Positions 12,931 to 47,648 of a DNA stretch of 47,648 bases are shown here, one piece after another. Origin of the DNA: an uncultured Oscillospiraceae bacterium (GTDB lineage: Bacteria; Bacillota; Clostridia; Oscillospirales; Ruminococcaceae); assembly GCA_949285935.1 (NCBI GenBank), contig CASEAH010000017.1, forward strand, positions 1 through 47,648. Direction: 5' to 3'. Each line of letters starts with the position of its first letter. Within the stretch, counting starts at the first letter, position 1. Position numbers and translations under genes: made by a program. The notes beneath the pieces are model-generated. The model made no database searches. It worked only from the letters and a program-made list of their open reading frames with translations, and was not told the origin of the DNA.

Positions 12931-14244
12931 ATGGAAAGCCTGTTTAAACTCAAAGAACACGGCACAACTGTCAGAACCGAGGTCATTGCGGGCATCACCA
13001 CATTCTTTGCCATGGCCGACATCATCTTCGTCAATCCCAACTACCTGTCCCAGACCGGCATGGACCAGACGGCTGTTATGGTGGCCACCTGTGTCTCCGC
13101 CGCCATCGGCTGCTTCCTCACCGCTTTCCTGGCCAATGTCCCCTTTGCCCAGGCACCCGGCATGGGACTGAATACCTTCTTCACCTTTACTCTTTGCTTC
13201 ACTATGGGCTATACCTGGCAGCAGGCCCTGACGGTGGTCCTCATTTCCGGCCTCCTTTTCCTGGCCGTGACCATCTCCCCCCTCCGCTCCAAAATCATTG
13301 CTTCCATCCCCAGCTTCCTCAAAAGCGCCATCTCTGCCGGTATCGGCCTCTTTATCGCTTTTGTGGGTCTCTTCAACGCAGGCATCATCCAGGCCTTCGG
13401 CCCTGAGGGCGGCAGCTACACCGATATGGGCCCCATCACCCACGGTGCTCCCCTGCTGGCCATTATCGGTCTGATCATTACCACCATCCTGGTGGTGTAC
13501 AAGGTGAAGGCGGCTATCTTTGTAGGTATCATCGTCACTACCATTATCGCCTTCCCCATGGGCCTTACCGCTCTTCCCGAGACCTTCACCATGGCCCACA
13601 TCGGCAACATTTCCATGACTCTGTTCCAGTTTGACTTCAATATCACCGGCGTGGGCATTATTTCTTTCTGCACCGCTGTGGTCACCTTTGCCATTGTGGA
13701 TATGTTCGACACGGTGGGTACCCTGATCGGTACTGCGGGCAACGCCGGAATGCTGGACAAGGACGGCAACCTCCCTCATGGCGACCGGGCCCTGATCGCT
13801 GACGCTCTTGCCACCTGCGTGGGCGCCTGCCTGGGTACCTCCACCGTCACCACCTATGTGGAATCCTCCACCGGCATCCAGGAGGGCGGCCGTACCGGAC
13901 TTACCGCCGCTGTCACCGGTGTGCTCTTCCTGCTCAGTGTGCTGCTGGCCCCTGTGGCGGGCATCATTCCCGGAGCTGCTACGGCTCCCGCCCTTATCAT
14001 TGTTGGCGTTTATATGCTGGCAGGCGCTGCCAAGATCCAGTGGAACGACTTTGAAGTGGCTCTTCCCGCCTTCCTGACTATCGCCATGATGCCTTTTGCC
14101 TACAGCATCGCCGACGGCATCGGCTTTGGCTTTATCTCCTACACCATTATCAAGGTGGCCCGTGGCAAGGCCAAGGAAGTTCCTCTCCTGATGTATGCCC
14201 TTTCCGCTCTCTTTGCGGTCATGTATATCCTTCTCTTCTGGTAA
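12931..14244 (+). CDS. NCS2/AzgA-type purine permease
   Basis: A 437-residue membrane protein with 12 or more hydrophobic segments. Signatures of the AzgA branch (guanine/hypoxanthine permeases such as PbuG) are GITTFFAMADIIFVNP near residue 24, AQAPGMGLNTFF near residue 73, and the substrate-site stretches DMFDTVGTLIGTAG and CVGACLGTSTVTTYVESS. The strong site ATAGGAGGACAAC precedes the ATG. It is a single gene with its own promoter. Adenine, guanine or hypoxanthine are the likely substrates from family knowledge; which one cannot be read here. Confidence 0.9.
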   Translation: MESLFKLKEHGTTVRTEVIAGITTFFAMADIIFVNPNYLSQTGMDQTAVMVATCVSAAIGCFLTAFLANVPFAQAPGMGLNTFFTFTLCFTMGYTWQQALTVVLISGLLFLAVTISPLRSKIIASIPSFLKSAISAGIGLFIAFVGLFNAGIIQAFGPEGGSYTDMGPITHGAPLLAIIGLIITTILVVYKVKAAIFVGIIVTTIIAFPMGLTALPETFTMAHIGNISMTLFQFDFNITGVGIISFCTAVVTFAIVDMFDTVGTLIGTAGNAGMLDKDGNLPHGDRALIADALATCVGACLGTSTVTTYVESSTGIQEGGRTGLTAAVTGVLFLLSVLLAPVAGIIPGAATAPALIIVGVYMLAGAAKIQWNDFEVALPAFLTIAMMPFAYSIADGIGFGFISYTIIKVARGKAKEVPLLMYALSALFAVMYILLFW

Positions 14245-26433: not shown

Positions 26434-27753
26434 TTATACATGAGCGGTCTTTTTCTTCCGGAAGAGGATGGTACCCACCACGCAGGTCATCATCAGACCG
26501 ACGCTGGCAATGTAGACGGGAACACGGTCGCCTACCAGCACCATGGCCGCCGCAAAGGGCATGATGATGAAGTTCCAGAAGAACACGGCATTGTAAACGC
26601 CCACAGCCTCAAAGATGCAGGACTGGTTGTTGGGGTCTACCGCACGGACCAGCGCAAAGCCCTGAGGGTTGGAGCCGGTGCACATACCGTATACCATAAG
26701 GGCTTTCTCGAACCACTGAGGATGGCCGATCTTCTTCATCCAGATGAAGACGAAAACCATGGTGAGGCCGCAGAAGACAAAGGCATGGAGGAACAGGGGC
26801 ATAAAGAAATTGGTAACGATATCCAGCTGAATGGTGGCGCAGGCAGAAACCAGGATCATTTCCAGAGTGAAGTTGCTGATCTGGTTGACGGTCTCCTTAT
26901 CCACATAGCGGTCCAGCTTGACCATCTTGAGGAGAGGCCATATGATGAGGCCGCCGATGAGGCCGTAGAGCATAGCGCCCACGTTGGACAGGAAGGGGAT
27001 AAAGACGATCAGGCCCTTGAAGATGAGTTCGCCCAGTTTGTAACCAACCGCCAGGAAGGCCAGCTGGAAGGCAATGCCGGAAACGTTGGTGGAGTTAACG
27101 GTGGTTTTGCCCAGGGATTCTCTCTTGTCCTCAGGCAGGGTGCCGCGGTAGAAGTACTTGGGCTGGCTGGAAAGGTCCTTGGTAAAGGTGGTCCAGCCAT
27201 GGCGGGCGCCGTAGTTGGCCATGATCATGCCGGGGATAATGGCCCAGAGAACACCCAGAGTGGCCAGCACCATGCCGATGCTGGTAGCGCCCAGAGCACC
27301 GTTGGGGTCGATGATCTCAGAAACTACGGGCACGTTGCCGTGGGAGCCGAAGAAAGCGGCCACGCCCAGCAGGCCCCAGCCATCGGGCAGTCCGGGCCAG
27401 ATGCCGCAGAACACGTCGCCCAGCATCAGGCCGAACATCATCTGGAAACCGAACATGGTCATATTGGCAAAGGTGAAGTCCAGATGCTCATAAATCCGCT
27501 TGGCGGTAACGGTGATGCCGATGGGTACACAGGCCATCATGATGCGCATGCCGTAGGAAGTGATATCGGAGAAAATGGCGGTGGGGATCTCGATCAGTCC
27601 CAGCACCTGCTGGCCCAGAATAAGGCCCAGGAAGCCGCCGATTACGCTGGCGGGGAGCAGCAGCTTCTGGAATGCCGGAACCAGCTCACGGATGATAACG
27701 CCTGCCATCAGCAGTAAGCCGAACATAATAAGCGCGTTAAATAATTCTGCCAT
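26434..27753 (-). CDS. GltS-like sodium/carboxylate symporter, paralogue 1
   Basis: A 439-residue protein with ten or more membrane segments resembling the ESS (GltS) sodium/glutamate symporters. Two inverted halves carry the glycine/histidine-rich hairpins typical of the fold: FFGSHGNVPVVSEIIDP in the first half and GMCTGSNPQGFALVRAVDP in the second. The ATG at 27753 has AGGAGGAGG before it; longer upstream frames are rejected. It is about two-thirds identical by eye to the paralogue at 28401. The substrate need not be glutamate. It lies beside a LysR gene and hydrolase-fold genes, suggesting uptake of a specific carboxylate. Confidence 0.8.
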   Translation of the reverse strand: MAELFNALIMFGLLLMAGVIIRELVPAFQKLLLPASVIGGFLGLILGQQVLGLIEIPTAIFSDITSYGMRIMMACVPIGITVTAKRIYEHLDFTFANMTMFGFQMMFGLMLGDVFCGIWPGLPDGWGLLGVAAFFGSHGNVPVVSEIIDPNGALGATSIGMVLATLGVLWAIIPGMIMANYGARHGWTTFTKDLSSQPKYFYRGTLPEDKRESLGKTTVNSTNVSGIAFQLAFLAVGYKLGELIFKGLIVFIPFLSNVGAMLYGLIGGLIIWPLLKMVKLDRYVDKETVNQISNFTLEMILVSACATIQLDIVTNFFMPLFLHAFVFCGLTMVFVFIWMKKIGHPQWFEKALMVYGMCTGSNPQGFALVRAVDPNNQSCIFEAVGVYNAVFFWNFIIMPFAAAMVLVGDRVPVYIASVGLMMTCVVGTILFRKKKTAHV

Positions 27754-28284
27754 AAATACTTTTCCTCCTCCTACTCTTGAGTCAGATCGAAAGCGGCGAG
27801 CCATTTTGGAACAGGCACGCGGCGGGGCTGCCGGGAACAGAATTTTTCCACAAATTTCCGTTCTCCGGATGATACTCTTTGCGGCTCCGGACAGCGCCTT
27901 CTGTCCCAAGCCTGTGGGATGGACGACCGGCAGGAAAAACAATGGCTGCAAACGCGTCCGGTGCGGGAAAGGTTATTCCCGCCATTTGCTGCATATGTTT
28001 TTCATACCGCCTCCACCCAATTTGGCAAGCTTCCCTCCTTCGTCTGTAAGTAAATATTGTCCAGCGGGAGACGAACCGCCGTCTCCTTCGCCGGGAAACC
28101 ATGGTAAATACCTTCCGCCTTTTCTCCAGGACTCCTTTGCGCTTTTGCCGCTTATGGAGCCATTTGAGACGGGAAAAAGGCACGGATGGATTGTCATTTT
28201 TTGGACAACTGGCAATGTTTATAAAATATTCATTTGGGCGTTGGCTATTTTAGGTTGATTTCATGGTACAACAAAACTACCCAT
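27754..28284. other. 530-base upstream region of symporter 1
   Basis: No gene is seen. An AT-rich segment (28215-28235, TTATAAAATATTCA) resembles one upstream of symporter 2 (ATATAAAATATTTCAA at 30113-30129). Both lie 400-470 bases before their genes, so these may be promoter or operator regions with long leaders. Confidence 0.4.
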
Positions 28285-28400: not shown

Positions 28401-29717
28401 TTATACTTTTACAGCTTTTTTCCTGCGGAACAGGAAGGTCCCCACAACGCTGGTGCACATCAGCCCGGCGCCGATGACGTAAATGGGGATTTGGTTGACG
28501 TTGACCATCAAAGCCGCGAAGGGAAGGATGATCATATTCCAGAAGAACACCGCGTTATAAACGCCCAAAGCCTCAAAGATACAGGACTGGTTGTTGGGGT
28601 CCACCGCCCGCACCAGTGCGAAGCCCTGGGGGTTGGAGCCGGTGCACATGCCGTAAGCCATCAAAGCTTTTTCGAACCACTGGGGGTGTCCGATCTTCTT
28701 CATCCAGCCAAAAGTAAACAGTGCCGCCAGGCCGCAGAAGATAAAGGCGTGGAGGAACAGAGGCAGGAAAAACTTGCTGACGATATCCAGCTGCACGGTG
28801 GAGCAGGCTCCCACCAGGATCATTTCCAGGGTAAAATTGCTGATCTGGGTGATGGTTTCCTTATCCACAAATTTGTCGATCTTCAGCCGCTTCATGACCG
28901 GCCAGAGGATCAGACCGCCGATGAGGCCGTACAGCATGGCGCTCACGTTGGCCAGGAAGGGGACGGCCATGGCAAAAAGACCAAAGAGCATCTGACCGAA
29001 TTTGTAGCAGACCGCCAGGATACCCAGCTGCAGGGCGATGCCGGTGACGTTGCTGGGGTTGACGGTGGTTTTGCCCATGCTTTCCCGTTTTTCTTCAGGC
29101 AGGGTTCCCCGGTAGAAGTATTTGGGCTGACTGGCCAGATCATGGGTAAAAGCGGCCCAGCCATGGCGTACCCCGTAGTTGGCGATAATCATACCGGGAA
29201 TAATGGCGAAAAGCACGCCCAGGGTAGCCAGCACCATGCCCATGCTTTGCGCCCCCATGGCTCCCGTGGGGTCGATCACCTCGGAGACGATGGGAATATT
29301 TCCGTGGGAGCCAAAGTAGGCGGCCACGCCCATCAGGCCCCGGCCCTGGGGAAGCTCAGGCCAGATATTGCAGAAAAGCGCTCCCAGCAAAACACCAAAG
29401 ACCATTTGGGAGCCGTATAAGGTCATGTTTGTGAAGGTGAAATCCAGGTGCTCATAAATGCGCTTGGCGGAGATGCTGACGCCAATGGGGACACAGGCCA
29501 TCATGATACGCATGCCAAAAGAAGTGACATCTGTGAAGATAGCGGTGGGGATCTCAATGAGCCCCAGAACCTGTTGGCCCAGGATCAGACCCAGGAAGCC
29601 GCCGATCAGGCTGGCGGGGAAAAGCAGTTTCTGCAGCGGTGGGACCAATTCACGGATGACAACACCCGCGATGAGCAGCAGCCCAAACAAAATCAATGCG
29701 TCAAAATATTCTGCCAT
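28401..29717 (-). CDS. GltS-like sodium/carboxylate symporter, paralogue 2
   Basis: A 438-residue membrane protein with the same landmarks as its neighbour: YFGSHGNIPIVSEVIDP, the shared cytoplasmic loop PKYFYRGTLPEEKRESMGK, and GMCTGSNPQGFALVRAVDP. The ATG at 29717 follows AAAGGAGG; earlier in-frame starts lack a site. Each paralogue has its own terminator and a long upstream region, so they are separate transcripts, perhaps expressed under different conditions. It sits between the first symporter and the LysR gene. Confidence 0.8.
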   Translation of the reverse strand: MAEYFDALILFGLLLIAGVVIRELVPPLQKLLFPASLIGGFLGLILGQQVLGLIEIPTAIFTDVTSFGMRIMMACVPIGVSISAKRIYEHLDFTFTNMTLYGSQMVFGVLLGALFCNIWPELPQGRGLMGVAAYFGSHGNIPIVSEVIDPTGAMGAQSMGMVLATLGVLFAIIPGMIIANYGVRHGWAAFTHDLASQPKYFYRGTLPEEKRESMGKTTVNPSNVTGIALQLGILAVCYKFGQMLFGLFAMAVPFLANVSAMLYGLIGGLILWPVMKRLKIDKFVDKETITQISNFTLEMILVGACSTVQLDIVSKFFLPLFLHAFIFCGLAALFTFGWMKKIGHPQWFEKALMAYGMCTGSNPQGFALVRAVDPNNQSCIFEALGVYNAVFFWNMIILPFAALMVNVNQIPIYVIGAGLMCTSVVGTFLFRRKKAVKV

Positions 29718-30178
29718 GATCTTTTCCTCCTTTTGTTCCCGATTTACACCTGAAATTTTGAGGATGCGGATAAAATTCCAGCCCTGCTGAGATGTTTCGG
29801 ACCCCGGCAGCTCTTTGTATCCGCAAAGTCTGCACCCTGCTTGACCAAGGGTGTTTGCGCAGCGGGATATCAAGCGCCTTTTTGGCTCACGCGGCCGTAT
29901 CCTTCAGAAAAATTTTGTCCTGGCAGTATCGTCCCCCTTTCGGTCCTTTGCACAAAACCCTTGTTGGGCCCACCGCCTTCTTGTGTCCTTGGAGGAAGGG
30001 AAGATCTCCTGCAGGCTCTGCACCAACACACCTTGAGAAGAAGTTATGAGGAAATTTGCGGCGGCCTTTTGGGTTTTTAGCAAAAATAAAAAGCAATTGT
30101 AATTATTGAAAATATATAAAATATTTCAACAAAATAATATAATTTTTATTTAATTTATGGCATAGCAATCAGGCTTGG
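29718..30178. other. Upstream region of symporter 2 with an inverted repeat
   Basis: No gene is seen. TTGAAA-N12-TTTCAA (30106-30129) is an AT-rich dyad of the general kind bound by LysR-type regulators, and the LysR gene ends just beyond. The dyad is about 390 bases from the symporter start. Confidence 0.4.
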
Positions 30179-30274: not shown

Positions 30275-31177
30275 TCAGGGATTGGCGGAAGTATAAAATT
30301 TTTGGCTCTTCAGAGTTTCCACAAAATTCTGGGCAGCAGTGGAAAGGGTCCGGCCCTGGAGCATGGCAAAGTAACGCTGGTTGTTCATATCCTCTCCCCG
30401 GATGGGGTGATAGATCATACCATTGCTTTCCATGGCGTCCGCATAAATGGCCAGAATGGCTACCATGTTGCCGCATTCCGCCAACTGAAAGGTGGCGTGG
30501 CGGGAATCGCTGATGGCCTTGATTAACGGGACGAAGCCCACCCCGTTGCAGAATTCCTCAATGTAGCGGTAGAGGCTGCGGGGGGCGCTGAGGGGGATCC
30601 CCTCCAGCTCGGAAAGGTCCACCGGTTCGCCGGGAGCCTTATCGGCCAGGAAGGGGCTGTCCGGGGTATGGCAGGCATACAGGTGGCTGTTCAGAGTAGC
30701 CACGATCCGGAATTTGGGAGGCAGCCGCTTGGGTGAGGAGACGGCCGCCAGCTCCACGATCCCCGACTCCAATTCCTCCAGAATCTGGTCGGTATTTTTT
30801 TCATGCAAAGAGATCATCACATCCGGGTACCGACGGTAATGGTCCAAAAGAATTTTGCGGAAGGAAGGATCCGGCATAAAGAGGGAAATGCCCAACCGCA
30901 GCGTAGCGGCGTCGCCGTTGGAAAGGTTGGAAATTTCGATCCCCATGTTTTCTTCGATCTGCAGGATGCTCCGGGCCGACCGGTAAAAGACCTTTCCGGC
31001 ATCGGTAAGCTCCACCGAGCGGGGATAACGGATAAAGAGGGGCACGCCCACTTCCTCTTCCATCCGCTTGATCTGGTTGGTAAGAGCCGGTTGAGCGATC
31101 AGCAGTTCTTTTGCCGCGCCGGTGATGCTTCGGCACTCGGCCACAGCCACAAAATTTCGGTATTGTGTAGTAGTCAT
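30275..31177 (-). CDS. LysR-family transcriptional regulator
   Basis: A 300-residue regulator. The winged helix-turn-helix fills residues 1-60 (SITGAAKELLIAQPALTNQIKRMEEEVG, then LFIRYPRSVELTDAG). A linker helix and an effector domain (about 90-295) follow. The ATG at 31177 follows GGAGG; an upstream in-frame start at 31258 is rejected because it overlaps the -35 box. It is divergent from the M24-fold gene and follows symporter 2's region, the classic position for a local activator. Its effector is probably the substrate or a product of this cluster. Confidence 0.92.
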   Translation of the reverse strand: MTTTQYRNFVAVAECRSITGAAKELLIAQPALTNQIKRMEEEVGVPLFIRYPRSVELTDAGKVFYRSARSILQIEENMGIEISNLSNGDAATLRLGISLFMPDPSFRKILLDHYRRYPDVMISLHEKNTDQILEELESGIVELAAVSSPKRLPPKFRIVATLNSHLYACHTPDSPFLADKAPGEPVDLSELEGIPLSAPRSLYRYIEEFCNGVGFVPLIKAISDSRHATFQLAECGNMVAILAIYADAMESNGMIYHPIRGEDMNNQRYFAMLQGRTLSTAAQNFVETLKSQKFYTSANP

Positions 31178-31229
31178 TCCAACCTCCATATATTTTTTGT
31201 TATGGATTCCTCCTGAATTTTGTATTTTA

Positions 31230-31258
31230 ATTATACCGGCATTTCGTGTATCCTTCAA
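31230..31258 (-). promoter_or_regulatory. Promoter of the LysR gene
   Basis: On the minus strand TTGAAG (31258-31253) and TATAAT (31235-31230) are 17 bases apart. A weaker plus-strand pair (TTCAAG 31254, CATAAA 31278, 18 bases) overlaps it and could serve the divergent gene. Confidence 0.75.
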
Positions 31259-31419
31259 GTAGGGGATATGAAAAATCCATAAAATTTAGCATCCCCACGG
31301 TTTTAACCTATGCCATTTGTACAAAGCGCAAAACGGATCATTGGGAGCAGCCGGTTCCGGGCTCCCCTGCCCGGGGCGAAAGCACCCTGAAAATAATACT
31401 TACAAGGAGTGTGCGGAGT

Positions 31420-32820
31420 ATGTCATTCATGGATTGTGAGAAACTGCTGGAGGGCTTTAAGCCCAGTTTTGAATTTGTGCCTCCCAAGGCCATCCCTGAA
31501 GAAGAGTACCGTGCCAGAATCGAGCATGTCCGCCGTGAGGCTGTGGTGGCGGAGCATGACGTCACTCTGGTCAATGCCAACGGCATCCTCAACTATCATT
31601 CCACCAACCGGTACCTGCGGTACCTGTGCGACTGGAACCGGGAAGGTATCCTGATCATCCCCTCCGACAGCAGCAAGGGCCTGCGGCTCTTCTCCTTCTA
31701 CACCCAGGCTGTTATCCTGCCTCCTTCCTGGGGCGAAGCCATTGGCGTGGAGAAGATCTATCAGGTAGGCGCGCTGGGCCGGGAATACTCGGGCCGTCCC
31801 GCTGATTCCGGCTCCAAGCTCATTGAGGGCGTTGTCAAGGCCCTGACCGAGATGGGATATTCCACCGCCAGCATCGGCCTCATCGGCGACGGCACCTCCG
31901 GCAAGCACTGGGCGGCTCTGAAAGAAGCCCTGCCCAAAGCTCAGTTCAAGGATGAGACCCATATCATCCTGGATATGCAGCGGCTGCGCACCAAGGCCGA
32001 GGTGGACCAGATCCGTGCTTCGGTGCAGCTGATGGAGATCGGCTTTGAGGCTGCCTGCCATGTCTGCAAGCCCGGCGTTACCGACTGGGAACTGTACGCC
32101 GCCTTCAGCTTTGCTCAGCTGGCCCGCGGCGGCGAGAATGCCGACGGCTACCAGATCGGCGTCAACAAGTGGGGCACCCACTGCGGCAAGGCCTACGGCC
32201 ATATTGTGGAGCCCGGCGATCTGATCAACTTCTATGTTTCCGGCATTTCCTACCGGGGCTATACCGGCCAGATGTCCCGTATGATCGCTGTGGGTGATAT
32301 CACCGACAAGCAGGAAGAGGCTCTGGAAGTGTGCACCGAGTCCCTGCGCCGCGCCGAAAAGGTCATCCGTCCCGGCGCCCGGGTCTGCGATATCCACAAA
32401 GCCGGCTTTGAGCCCTTTATCGAGCACGGCCTGCTGAAGGACGACGTCACCGCCACCATGCCCTACAACTGGGCTCCCAACGACGACCTTTCCGCCATGG
32501 AGATTCCCCAGCAGTACATCCCCGACGAGGGCCTGGAGCGTTACGGCCTGAAGCTCAACCACATTTATCCCCCTGTGGGCGGCCCCCACAACCCCAACCT
32601 GGGACATGGCGTGGGCATGCACGGCAACCCCGACAAGTTCAACGTCACCTCCCACAACACCGATATCTGCCAGCCCGGCCTGGCCTTTGTGCTGCATCCC
32701 CAGTGGCTGGTTCCCATGGAATGCGGCGCCAATATCGGCAACTGCTATGTGGTCACCGAGGACGGTTACGAGAACCTGTCCTGCCATACTCCCATCGAGA
32801 CCATCCGCATCAAGGCCTGA
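31420..32820 (+). CDS. M24 'pita-bread' fold protein lacking most metal ligands
   Basis: A 466-residue protein with a creatinase-type N-terminal domain (about 25-200) and a C-terminal M24 domain (about 205-466). The fold is marked by LDMQRLRTKAEVDQIRAS, the GDLINFYVSG strand, LGHGVGMHGNP and a final VVTEDGYENLS. Compared with M24 peptidases, the ligand positions read Asn270 (for Asp), Gln284 (Asp), His396 (conserved His), His426 (Glu) and Gly440 (Glu). Four of five metal ligands are gone. M24 members without metal exist, creatinase being the known enzyme, but creatinase keeps different acidic residues. ATG at 31420 follows AAGGAG. It probably heads the operon with the next genes. Function unknown. 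Confidence 0.85.
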   Translation: MSFMDCEKLLEGFKPSFEFVPPKAIPEEEYRARIEHVRREAVVAEHDVTLVNANGILNYHSTNRYLRYLCDWNREGILIIPSDSSKGLRLFSFYTQAVILPPSWGEAIGVEKIYQVGALGREYSGRPADSGSKLIEGVVKALTEMGYSTASIGLIGDGTSGKHWAALKEALPKAQFKDETHIILDMQRLRTKAEVDQIRASVQLMEIGFEAACHVCKPGVTDWELYAAFSFAQLARGGENADGYQIGVNKWGTHCGKAYGHIVEPGDLINFYVSGISYRGYTGQMSRMIAVGDITDKQEEALEVCTESLRRAEKVIRPGARVCDIHKAGFEPFIEHGLLKDDVTATMPYNWAPNDDLSAMEIPQQYIPDEGLERYGLKLNHIYPPVGGPHNPNLGHGVGMHGNPDKFNVTSHNTDICQPGLAFVLHPQWLVPMECGANIGNCYVVTEDGYENLSCHTPIETIRIKA

Positions 32821-32842
32821 TTTGCGGCAGGTCGGCTTTGCA

Positions 32843-32877
32843 GGGCGTTTCCGGGGTGCCCCGCCCCGGAAACGCCC
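32843..32877 (+). other. Strong hairpin between the M24-fold and amidohydrolase genes
   Basis: GGGCGTTTCCGGGG pairs perfectly with CCCCGGAAACGCCC around a seven-base loop. No T-run follows, so it is likely an mRNA stability or processing element that could lower or separate expression of the two genes. Confidence 0.6.
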
Positions 32878-32961
32878 GCCCTCCCACCACCGCCGGCAGC
32901 AAGCCGGCAGCGGCCCGGACCTTTCGGGATCCGGCTCCCCTGACAAAGGAGAACTGGCGTT

Positions 32962-34200
32962 ATGAATAAAACCGTACTTACCAACTGTACCCTCCTGGAC
33001 GGATCGGCCGGTATGACTCCCCGGAGCAACATGTCTGTTGTTCTGGAGGGAGATACCATCCTTTCCGTTGAGGAGGGTTGTCCGTCTTTGGAGGAAGTCA
33101 ACCTTTTTGACCTCCAGGGACATTACCTTATGCCGGGTCTGGTGAACCTCCACGCCTGCCTGGCCCAAAAGGGCAGGGGAGGAAGAGGCAGCCATGGCCC
33201 CGGCCGGCTGATGATGAGCAACCCGGCTACCCGCGCCCTGGTGCGGCTCCGCAGCGCCGAAAGCTCCCGGATCGCCATGATGAGCGGCGTCACCACCCTG
33301 GTGTCGGCAGACAGTCCCGGAGGGATCGACTCCCTGGTGCGGGACTGGATCAATATCGCCCATGTGGACGGTCCCCGGATCGTGGCCACCAACCTTCCGG
33401 TGGTCCCCGGGGGAGGGCCTTCCGCCAGGTGGCCGTCCCAGGCGGCAGAGGGCCCGGAACAGGCTGCCCGGTGTGTGGAGACCCTCTGCGCCGGCAGTCC
33501 CGATCTGATCCGGGTGCTGGCCACTGACGGAAGCGCAGCTCTGGACGGGGAAACTCTCCGGGCCTGCTGCGAGACTGCCCACCGGCAGAACCGCCGGGTC
33601 ATGGTGTGGGCCGACACCCCCCAAAGCGTACGGACCGCGCTGGAAAGCGGCGCGGACCTGATCCAGCATGGAGCAGAACTGGATGATGCGGCTCTGGACC
33701 TGTTCCGGAAAAAGGGTGCGGCCCTGGTCTGCGGCCTTTCTTCCCTGATCCCCGGGTCGGAGGAGCGCCGGAACCCCATGGGCCCCGCCTTCCGCCCGGA
33801 GCAAAAGGCAGAACGGGAGGAGATGGCCCGGTGTATCCGCCAGGCCCTGGAGGCGGGAATCCCCGTGGGGCTGGGCAGCGGCGCGGGAGCGGCGTATGCG
33901 CCCCACTATGACATGTGGAGGGAGCTCTGGTGGTTTTCCCGCATGGCCGGCGTGGATGCGGCCTTTGCCCTCCATACCGCTACGGCTGTCAATGCGGAGA
34001 TTGCGGGACTGGGAGAAGTGACCGGAACGGTGGAAGCGGGAAAATGCGCCGACCTGCTGGTGACCGACCGGAATCCTCTGGAGGACCTTTCGGCACTACG
34101 GCAGCCCACCATGGTGGTGGTCCGGGGAGCAGTCATGAATCCCCGGCAGTTTAAGGACAAACGGACAGAACAGATCCTGGACGGCCTCATGGCCCCCTGA
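32962..34200 (+). CDS. Amidohydrolase-fold protein with degenerate metal site
   Basis: A 412-residue protein of the imidazolonepropionase-like amidohydrolase group: MPGLVNLHACL near residue 57, SGVTTL near 108, a TIM-barrel core, and the C-terminal TGTVEAGKCADLLVTDRNPLED. Ligand positions, aligned by eye to typical members, read His64 and Cys66 (for HxH), Arg184 (for the Lys), Trp216 and Asp218 (for the HxH strand), His236 (kept) and Gly307 (for the catalytic Asp). A binuclear metal site looks impossible. AAAGGAGAA precedes the ATG. The upstream neighbour shows the same kind of loss, so the two may act together as binding proteins or by another chemistry. Confidence 0.85.
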   Translation: MNKTVLTNCTLLDGSAGMTPRSNMSVVLEGDTILSVEEGCPSLEEVNLFDLQGHYLMPGLVNLHACLAQKGRGGRGSHGPGRLMMSNPATRALVRLRSAESSRIAMMSGVTTLVSADSPGGIDSLVRDWINIAHVDGPRIVATNLPVVPGGGPSARWPSQAAEGPEQAARCVETLCAGSPDLIRVLATDGSAALDGETLRACCETAHRQNRRVMVWADTPQSVRTALESGADLIQHGAELDDAALDLFRKKGAALVCGLSSLIPGSEERRNPMGPAFRPEQKAEREEMARCIRQALEAGIPVGLGSGAGAAYAPHYDMWRELWWFSRMAGVDAAFALHTATAVNAEIAGLGEVTGTVEAGKCADLLVTDRNPLEDLSALRQPTMVVVRGAVMNPRQFKDKRTEQILDGLMAP

Positions 34201-47384: not shown

Positions 47385-47648
47385 TTGAAAAAACTGATCA
47401 AAAACGGAACGGTTCTGCTGGGCAAGGAGCTGAAGGCGGTCAAGACAGATCTGCTTATCGATGGGAACAACATCGCAGAGGTGGGACCGGACCTGCACTG
47501 TCAGGACGCGGAGGTGATCGACGCCCGGGATATGCTTATCATGCCGGGACTGTGCAACGCGCATCTGCATTCGGATGAGAACATTTTCAAAGGGATGACG
47601 GATAACCTGCCTCTGGAGCTCTGGATGCTGTATACCTATCCCACGCTG
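47385..47648 (+). CDS. Amidohydrolase (ATZ/TRZ-like), cut by the window edge
   Basis: The first 88 residues of an amidohydrolase, beginning at TTG 47385 after AGAGGAGG (47368-47375). It continues beyond the window. It shows the N-terminal beta domain, MLIMPGLCNAHLHSDENIFK with an intact HxH pair, and GMTDNLPLELWM, which resembles the ATZ/TRZ deaminase group (HxHxxE..KG, then DNLPL). The family acts on heterocyclic amines, S-adenosylhomocysteine, guanine or similar compounds. Unlike the amidohydrolase-fold protein at 32962, its first metal motif is complete. Confidence 0.85.
   Translation, partial: MKKLIKNGTVLLGKELKAVKTDLLIDGNNIAEVGPDLHCQDAEVIDARDMLIMPGLCNAHLHSDENIFKGMTDNLPLELWMLYTYPTL

Follow-up and report, generated by a model that had tools for sequence, protein, structure and literature searches.

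The window analysed here is a 47,648-nucleotide stretch (positions 1 to 47,648 of contig CASEAH010000017.1) of an uncultured Oscillospiraceae bacterium, in which a protein of the M24 (pita-bread) fold and an amidohydrolase-fold protein are encoded one after the other, both of which lack the majority of the metal ligands standard in their families. The altered active site of the M24 protein is shared by all 16 members of a clade examined from genomes and plasmids, and these genes lie beside importer genes in every case, whereas the losses in the amidohydrolase-fold protein are confined to the window and one other genome. The reading we favour, with a probability of about 0.45, is that the M24 protein is a functional member of this clade, a C–N hydrolase resembling creatinase or the ectoine hydrolase DoeA that acts on an imported ureide- or amidine-like compound, and that the amidohydrolase-fold protein is a lineage-limited, non-catalytic companion.

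The M24 protein matched PF00557 with 97.2 bits (cut-off 23). An HMMER profile of seven clade sequences was aligned to the Pyrococcus furiosus prolidase 1pv9, with residues counted by hand from the printed alignment, and D209, D220, H284, E313 and E327 of 1pv9, which we take to be its metal ligands, were placed on Tyr272, Gln284, His396, His426 and Gly440 of the M24 protein. The same D/D/H/E/E pattern is given in the literature for Escherichia coli PepQ. Under three MAFFT settings, Tyr272, Gln284 and Gly440 coincided with D, D and E of L001, L002 and L004, which are M24 proteins of the own genome; in some of these settings the column of His396 or of His426 slipped for L002 or L004. Across the four own-genome proteins L001–L004, the columns of Tyr272, Gln284, His426 and Gly440 hold D, D, E and E (4/4 each) and that of His396 holds H, H, Y and a gap. 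A preliminary description of this DNA had named Asn270, Gln284, His426 and Gly440 as the substituted positions and His396 as the surviving ligand; the latter four were recovered in the profile and MAFFT alignments, while Asn270 proved to be two residues off, the Asp column being occupied by Tyr272. Despite this error, its conclusion that most standard ligands are gone stands, with Y/Q/H/H/G in place of D/D/H/E/E.

The 16-sequence set consists of the window protein, six relatives from species genomes (L015–L020, 64–81% identity) and nine plasmid homologues. The genome relatives were retrieved by scanning the species-genome collection with peptide seeds, which reaches only close relatives. Two of them derive from metagenome-assembled genomes (MAGs), one labelled Fretibacterium (Synergistota) and one Clostridium, two from Lachnospiraceae and two from Oceanobacillus. 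Searching plasmid records yielded 61 with E ≤ 1e-40, the best 60 of which are 51–56% identical to the window protein, as are the nine chosen for examination; among the matches listed, the genera are Rhizobium, Agrobacterium, Neorhizobium, Allorhizobium and Shinella with one Roseateles-labelled record, and everything listed below this group drops to 20–29% identity. The Y/Q/H/H/G set was found in 16/16 sequences, and His254, Cys255, Lys257, His261 and Asn270 are invariant as well, among 138 invariant positions of 466. Some of the 16 rows are close to each other and so represent fewer independent events. Comparison of the window gene with that of L016 by the Nei–Gojobori method (NG86) gave 0.14 nonsynonymous (dN) and 0.86 synonymous (dS) substitutions per site, dS against L015 being unusable. 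Since the same residues recur in all 16 sequences, the altered active site is, as judged from this conservation, old and selected and not a product of chance. The clade members on plasmids, where annotated, are usually named "Xaa-Pro peptidase family protein", a label contradicted by the active site, and among the open-access literature matches listed there was no description of the clade or of a link between M24 proteins and allantoin.

Because the ligands are replaced, the M24 protein has presumably lost its metal. The dinuclear site would have given way to a Tyr/Gln/His/His/Gly pocket, and the protein would act in the cytosol, cleaving a C–N bond in a small compound of the ureide or amidine kind that is brought in by the nearby transporter, with His254 as a possible proton shuttle; the step may feed allantoin (purine) breakdown or run beside it. 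One ion could still be held by Tyr272, Gln284, His396 and His426. The clade would then not be metal-free and would carry a single-ion site built from these residues, perhaps with His254, instead of the dinuclear carboxylate site. We consider this somewhat unlikely: the residues are invariant, His426 stands at a former ligand Glu and the ligand His396 is kept, but DoeA offers a ligand-free precedent, no M24 protein with a Tyr/Gln/His/His site is known to us, and the structure model is too poor for geometry. Less likely still is an M24 protein without enzyme activity that binds or senses the imported compound, as the loss of catalytic ligands, the regulators nearby and the M24 pseudoenzyme (an Ebp1 homologue) described in PMC3888471 might suggest; many invariant polar residues (His254, Cys255, Lys257, His261, Gln284) resemble an active pocket, and the neighbours are importers and catabolic genes.

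A hydrolase of this kind would fit the gene content of the seven M24-bearing genomes tested. The ureidoglycine aminohydrolase model TIGR03214 was over its cut-off in 7/7 M24-bearing genomes (those of the window and of L015–L020) and in 1/14 controls, and allantoinase in 7/7 versus 2/14 controls, the controls being the sole comparison group for the latter. Counting by family, TIGR03214 was over cut-off in 7/197 genomes of the own family (own genome included) and in 18/299 of the L018 family (L018 genome included), and the background among genomes lacking the M24 gene amounted to 23/494 (Fisher p 1.4e-9 for 7/7, or 3.9e-7 when counted as five lineages). The M24 and ureidoglycine aminohydrolase genes share one cluster in three of the seven genomes (L016–L018): the L018 cluster encodes, by NCBIfam, two allantoinases (400 and 422 bits; cut-off 358) and a ureidoglycine aminohydrolase (330 bits; cut-off 200), with PucR and AllH Pfam domains over cut-off, and L016 and L017 likewise have allantoinase and ureidoglycine aminohydrolase. 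This association, on which the proposed substrate class rests, is strong among the seven genomes tested when whole genomes are compared, and patchy at the locus level. In the own genome (G000, a 2.4 Mb assembly; contigs C70, C81, C29 and C83), six matches to the allantoinase model were over cut-off and no AllC match was found at E 0.001; a gene of the Xanthine/uracil permease family lies in the window itself at 12931–14244 (+).

Several points weigh against a role beside allantoin breakdown, or against the proposed chemistry. The M24 gene is rare, being found in 1/197 genomes of the own family, 1/391 of the class and 1/299 of the L018 family, each time in the starting genome itself, and 23 other genomes with ureidoglycine aminohydrolase are without it. 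The background was drawn from two families, the window's and that of L018, and does not match those of L015, L016, L019 and L020 (Oceanobacillus included); the M24-bearing side of the comparison is made up of the seven window and genome loci, without plasmid hosts. In four of the seven genomes ureidoglycine aminohydrolase is encoded outside the examined M24 flanks, and the plasmid-locus neighbours (flavin reductase in 6/9, proC, amino-acid ABC genes) give no plain allantoin pointer. The sequence around the catalytic-His column reads Thr-His254-Cys255-Gly; His254 was placed on the catalytic-His column of L001 by three MAFFT runs and hhalign, but the HMMER profile puts Cys255 there instead. AlphaFold models from seven and two sequences reached a mean predicted local distance difference test (pLDDT) of 53.9 and 45.5, so that even the better, at 54, is unusable for side chains and interfaces. 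Nor does the M24 protein replace the allantoate amidohydrolase AllC, as AllC-like matches over most of the profile were present in 6/7 M24-bearing genomes (240–751 bits, cut-off 598; two over cut-off, and the G583 match with an in-frame stop).

That the M24 protein stands in for AllC was rejected as a general rule, since the absence of AllC is not tied to the M24 gene. Among 15 ureidoglycine aminohydrolase genomes without an M24 match, which form part of the 23 (6/6 from the window's family and 9/17 from the L018 family), a comparable AllC-like match was seen in 12 (259–306 bits, none over cut-off), and the three without it all belong to the window's family. A role in anti-phage defence was likewise rejected, the three genes of the locus having no PADLOC match at E 0.001.

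Importer genes are found near the M24 gene at 16/16 loci, namely genes for a GltS-like transporter at all seven window and genome loci and ATP-binding cassette (ABC) importer genes at all nine plasmid loci. The window's two adjoining transporter copies have diverged beyond the reach of both the Pfam and the NCBIfam models, with no relevant Pfam match and no NCBIfam match at E 0.001, and the L018 copy has no Glt_symporter match in Pfam; their GltS label rests on the L015, L016 and L019 homologues, which weakly exceed the Glt_symporter cut-off (29–43 bits, cut-off 26), and on an hhalign probability of 95% between the transporter group and the clear GltS of L020 (366 bits). An acidic substrate, for example a ureido acid, would be in keeping with a carrier of the GltS type.

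A flavin reductase family gene lies directly 3' of the M24 gene at six of the nine plasmid loci, and the others carry an amidase (L021), whose best NCBIfam match is allophanate hydrolase far under cut-off (126 of 487 bits), proC (L026), or, at L027, an ABC operon of the sugar type along with an NMT1-like gene and a gene of the Asp/Glu/hydantoin racemase family; an arginase-family gene is present at L020. An open reading frame (ORF) without a listed gene at L024:12044–12526 (+), just past the flavin reductase gene, is 33% identical over 126 amino acids to the L016 ureidoglycine aminohydrolase. Six NMT1/THI5-like proteins, four of them scanned with Pfam, are encoded near the M24 gene (L015:5666–6604, L017:6971–7903, L018:6973–7905, L026:7021–7935, L026:7954–8874 and L027:14670–15587); no obvious signal peptide was seen by eye at their N-termini, and for this reason they are perhaps cytosolic rather than periplasmic.

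A bolder proposal, which we hold to be possible though on balance doubtful, is that the clade is a new enzyme family of purine-ureide catabolism whose records carry the labels of three phyla. Its dinuclear carboxylate site would have been rebuilt into the invariant Tyr/Gln/His/His pocket with the His-Cys pair beside it, to give either a new mononuclear metal site or a metal-free, possibly Cys/His-based, C–N hydrolase.

The amidohydrolase-fold neighbour (PF01979, 54.4 bits; cut-off 25) has lost four of the six ligand and carbamate-lysine columns. These read H, C, R, W, H, G in the window, and H, H, K, H, H, D in all of eight relatives (25–40% identity), which come from seven own-family genomes, so that neither the window copy nor that of L016 retains the HxH motif, carbamate Lys, two His and Asp of the superfamily. 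It had been claimed that Cys66, Arg184, Trp216, Asp218 and Gly307 occupy ligand or catalytic positions while His64 and His236 remain; Cys66, Arg184, Trp216 and Gly307 indeed replace the His, Lys, His and Asp of the 8/8 intact relatives and both histidines are kept, and Asp218, although present, is not counted as a ligand, because the relatives carry Glu or His there. Alignment of the two proteins to their relatives thus brought no ordinary ligands back at most of the sites in question. The L016 copy, 49% identical, reads K, C, R, Y, H, G and has thus lost five, position 64 additionally. An own-family search (E 1e-30) matched 8/197 genomes, the seven besides the own genome holding the intact relatives, and a search of the L016-genome family (E 1e-50) matched 1/87, the L016 genome alone. 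Conservation of the substitutions in homologues holds for the M24 protein (16/16) and not for the amidohydrolase, where the loss is seen in the window and L016. A further amidohydrolase-like gene, cut by the window end (47415–47648, +), has an intact N-terminal His-x-His, its 78 residues scoring below the Pfam cut-offs.

The window amidohydrolase is probably non-catalytic, to judge by these columns. Its gene nevertheless looks maintained, since fewer changes fall at codon positions 1 (0.41) and 2 (0.31) than at position 3 (0.65) between the window and L016; NG86 over 385 codons gave dN 0.50 and dS 2.03, the latter near saturation. The frames of both hydrolase-fold genes are open, a purine-rich ribosome-binding-like motif precedes each start and dN is below dS against L016 for both, in agreement with the view that neither is decaying. 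The preliminary description had further proposed a joint role for the two proteins. As a general rule this finds no support, because the pair occurs at 2/16 loci (the window and L016, both with the HD gene), and no relative of the amidohydrolase was found within the 8–10 kb flanks at the other 14. The losses thus look to be of different age and mostly separate, the M24 site being altered at 14 loci without an amidohydrolase relative and the amidohydrolase loss occurring in the window genome and L016 only. The amidohydrolase is best read, from its sequence, as a recently retired enzyme, a more recent and lineage-limited derivative that would have lost metal catalysis and been kept with the HD protein for a non-catalytic or auxiliary role.

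Just as inactive dihydroorotases assist aspartate transcarbamoylase, the degenerate amidohydrolase might support the M24 or HD protein as a partner subunit or as a scaffold. In two genomes it is kept open and constrained in the vicinity of these M24 and HD genes, but 14/16 loci show none in the examined flanks, so that the M24 protein can generally do without it as a neighbour, and we regard such a partnership as unlikely. Very improbable, in our estimate, is a metal-free enzyme using Cys66, Asp218 or His236: these residues and Arg184 are common to both copies despite their 49% identity, but there are two sequences only, the carbamate lysine and catalytic Asp are gone, and His64 is not kept in both. 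The HD protein encoded next has a 62% identical counterpart at the L016 locus (Table 1).

Table 1. Features around the two hydrolase-fold genes, in window coordinates.
Feature	Position	Strand	Basis or remark
M24 (pita-bread) fold protein, 466 aa	31420..32820	+	ORF, Pfam, alignments
AAGGAG ribosome-binding-like (Shine-Dalgarno-like) motif, 10 bases upstream of the M24 start	31404..31409	+	sequence
Amidohydrolase-fold protein, 412 aa	32962..34200	+	ORF, Pfam, alignments
AAAGGAGA ribosome-binding-like motif upstream of the amidohydrolase start	32945..32952	+	sequence
HD-domain protein, 189 aa	34233..34802	+	starts 32 bases past the amidohydrolase stop
LysR-type regulator, divergent from the M24 gene	30275..31258	-	Pfam
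GltS-like polytopic transporter, divergent upstream	28401..29873	-	each of the six related non-plasmid M24 loci has a homologue
Second GltS-like transporter copy	26434..27951	-	homology

If the clade is indeed a ureide hydrolase, allantoin use in bacteria would gain a step, or a side entry, so far unassigned, and the clade would be a further case, besides creatinase and DoeA, of a metallopeptidase fold turned into a catabolic enzyme without its metal ligands. With its residues invariant, the proposal lends itself to direct testing.

Among solved structures, prolidase and aminopeptidase P (M24B) share the fold and give the best sequence matches for the M24 protein, from which the clade differs by replacement of four of five metal ligands in 16/16 sequences; the cut-off of the Xaa-Pro dipeptidase model of Caulobacter type was missed (NF051886, 111.6 of 500 bits). 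The closest solved relative of the amidohydrolase is 2p9b ("possible prolidase"; E 7e-45, residues 5–399 of 412), whose HxH, His and Asp stand against HxC, Trp and Gly in the window protein, the alignment being read by eye. The dimethylsulfoniopropionate (DMSP) lyase DddP, as described in PMC4108388, is an M24-fold catabolic enzyme as proposed here for the clade and, unlike the clade, retains its metal ligands; the DddP model was missed as well (NF043017, 18.8 of 600 bits).

Creatinase (creatine amidinohydrolase; 1chm, 1kp0, 7yto) is a hydrolase of a small guanidino compound, and like that type the M24 protein has, by its ligand columns, an M24 fold without the full metal-ligand set. The two were linked by sequence search for the fold and by Foldseek, where creatinases ranked 1–4 for the M24 model, a low-confidence model and the sole one searched by fold; identity is ~18% in the Foldseek alignments, and the likeness is one of fold and not of a residue-level active-site alignment. 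One creatinase retained >80% activity in EDTA (ethylenediaminetetraacetic acid), according to PMC7568399.

The ectoine hydrolase DoeA/EutD (6twj, 6twk) resembles the clade in its M24 fold (hhalign probability 98%), in the loss of the ligand columns and in an import-plus-catabolism cluster, and differs in the residues at these columns, Glu/Pro/Tyr/Met/Thr compared with Tyr/Gln/His/His/Gly; the cut-offs of both ectoine hydrolase models were missed by the M24 protein (NF038259, 66 of 575 bits; TIGR02993, 35.7 of 613 bits). Since DoeA reads so at the ligand columns and has, by entry titles, structures with substrate and product (6twk, 6yo9), the M24 fold can work without metal ligands. With the altered site in all 16 clade members, the "metal-free reaction as in creatinase" suggested among other roles at the outset is, for the M24 protein, the reading with the best support.

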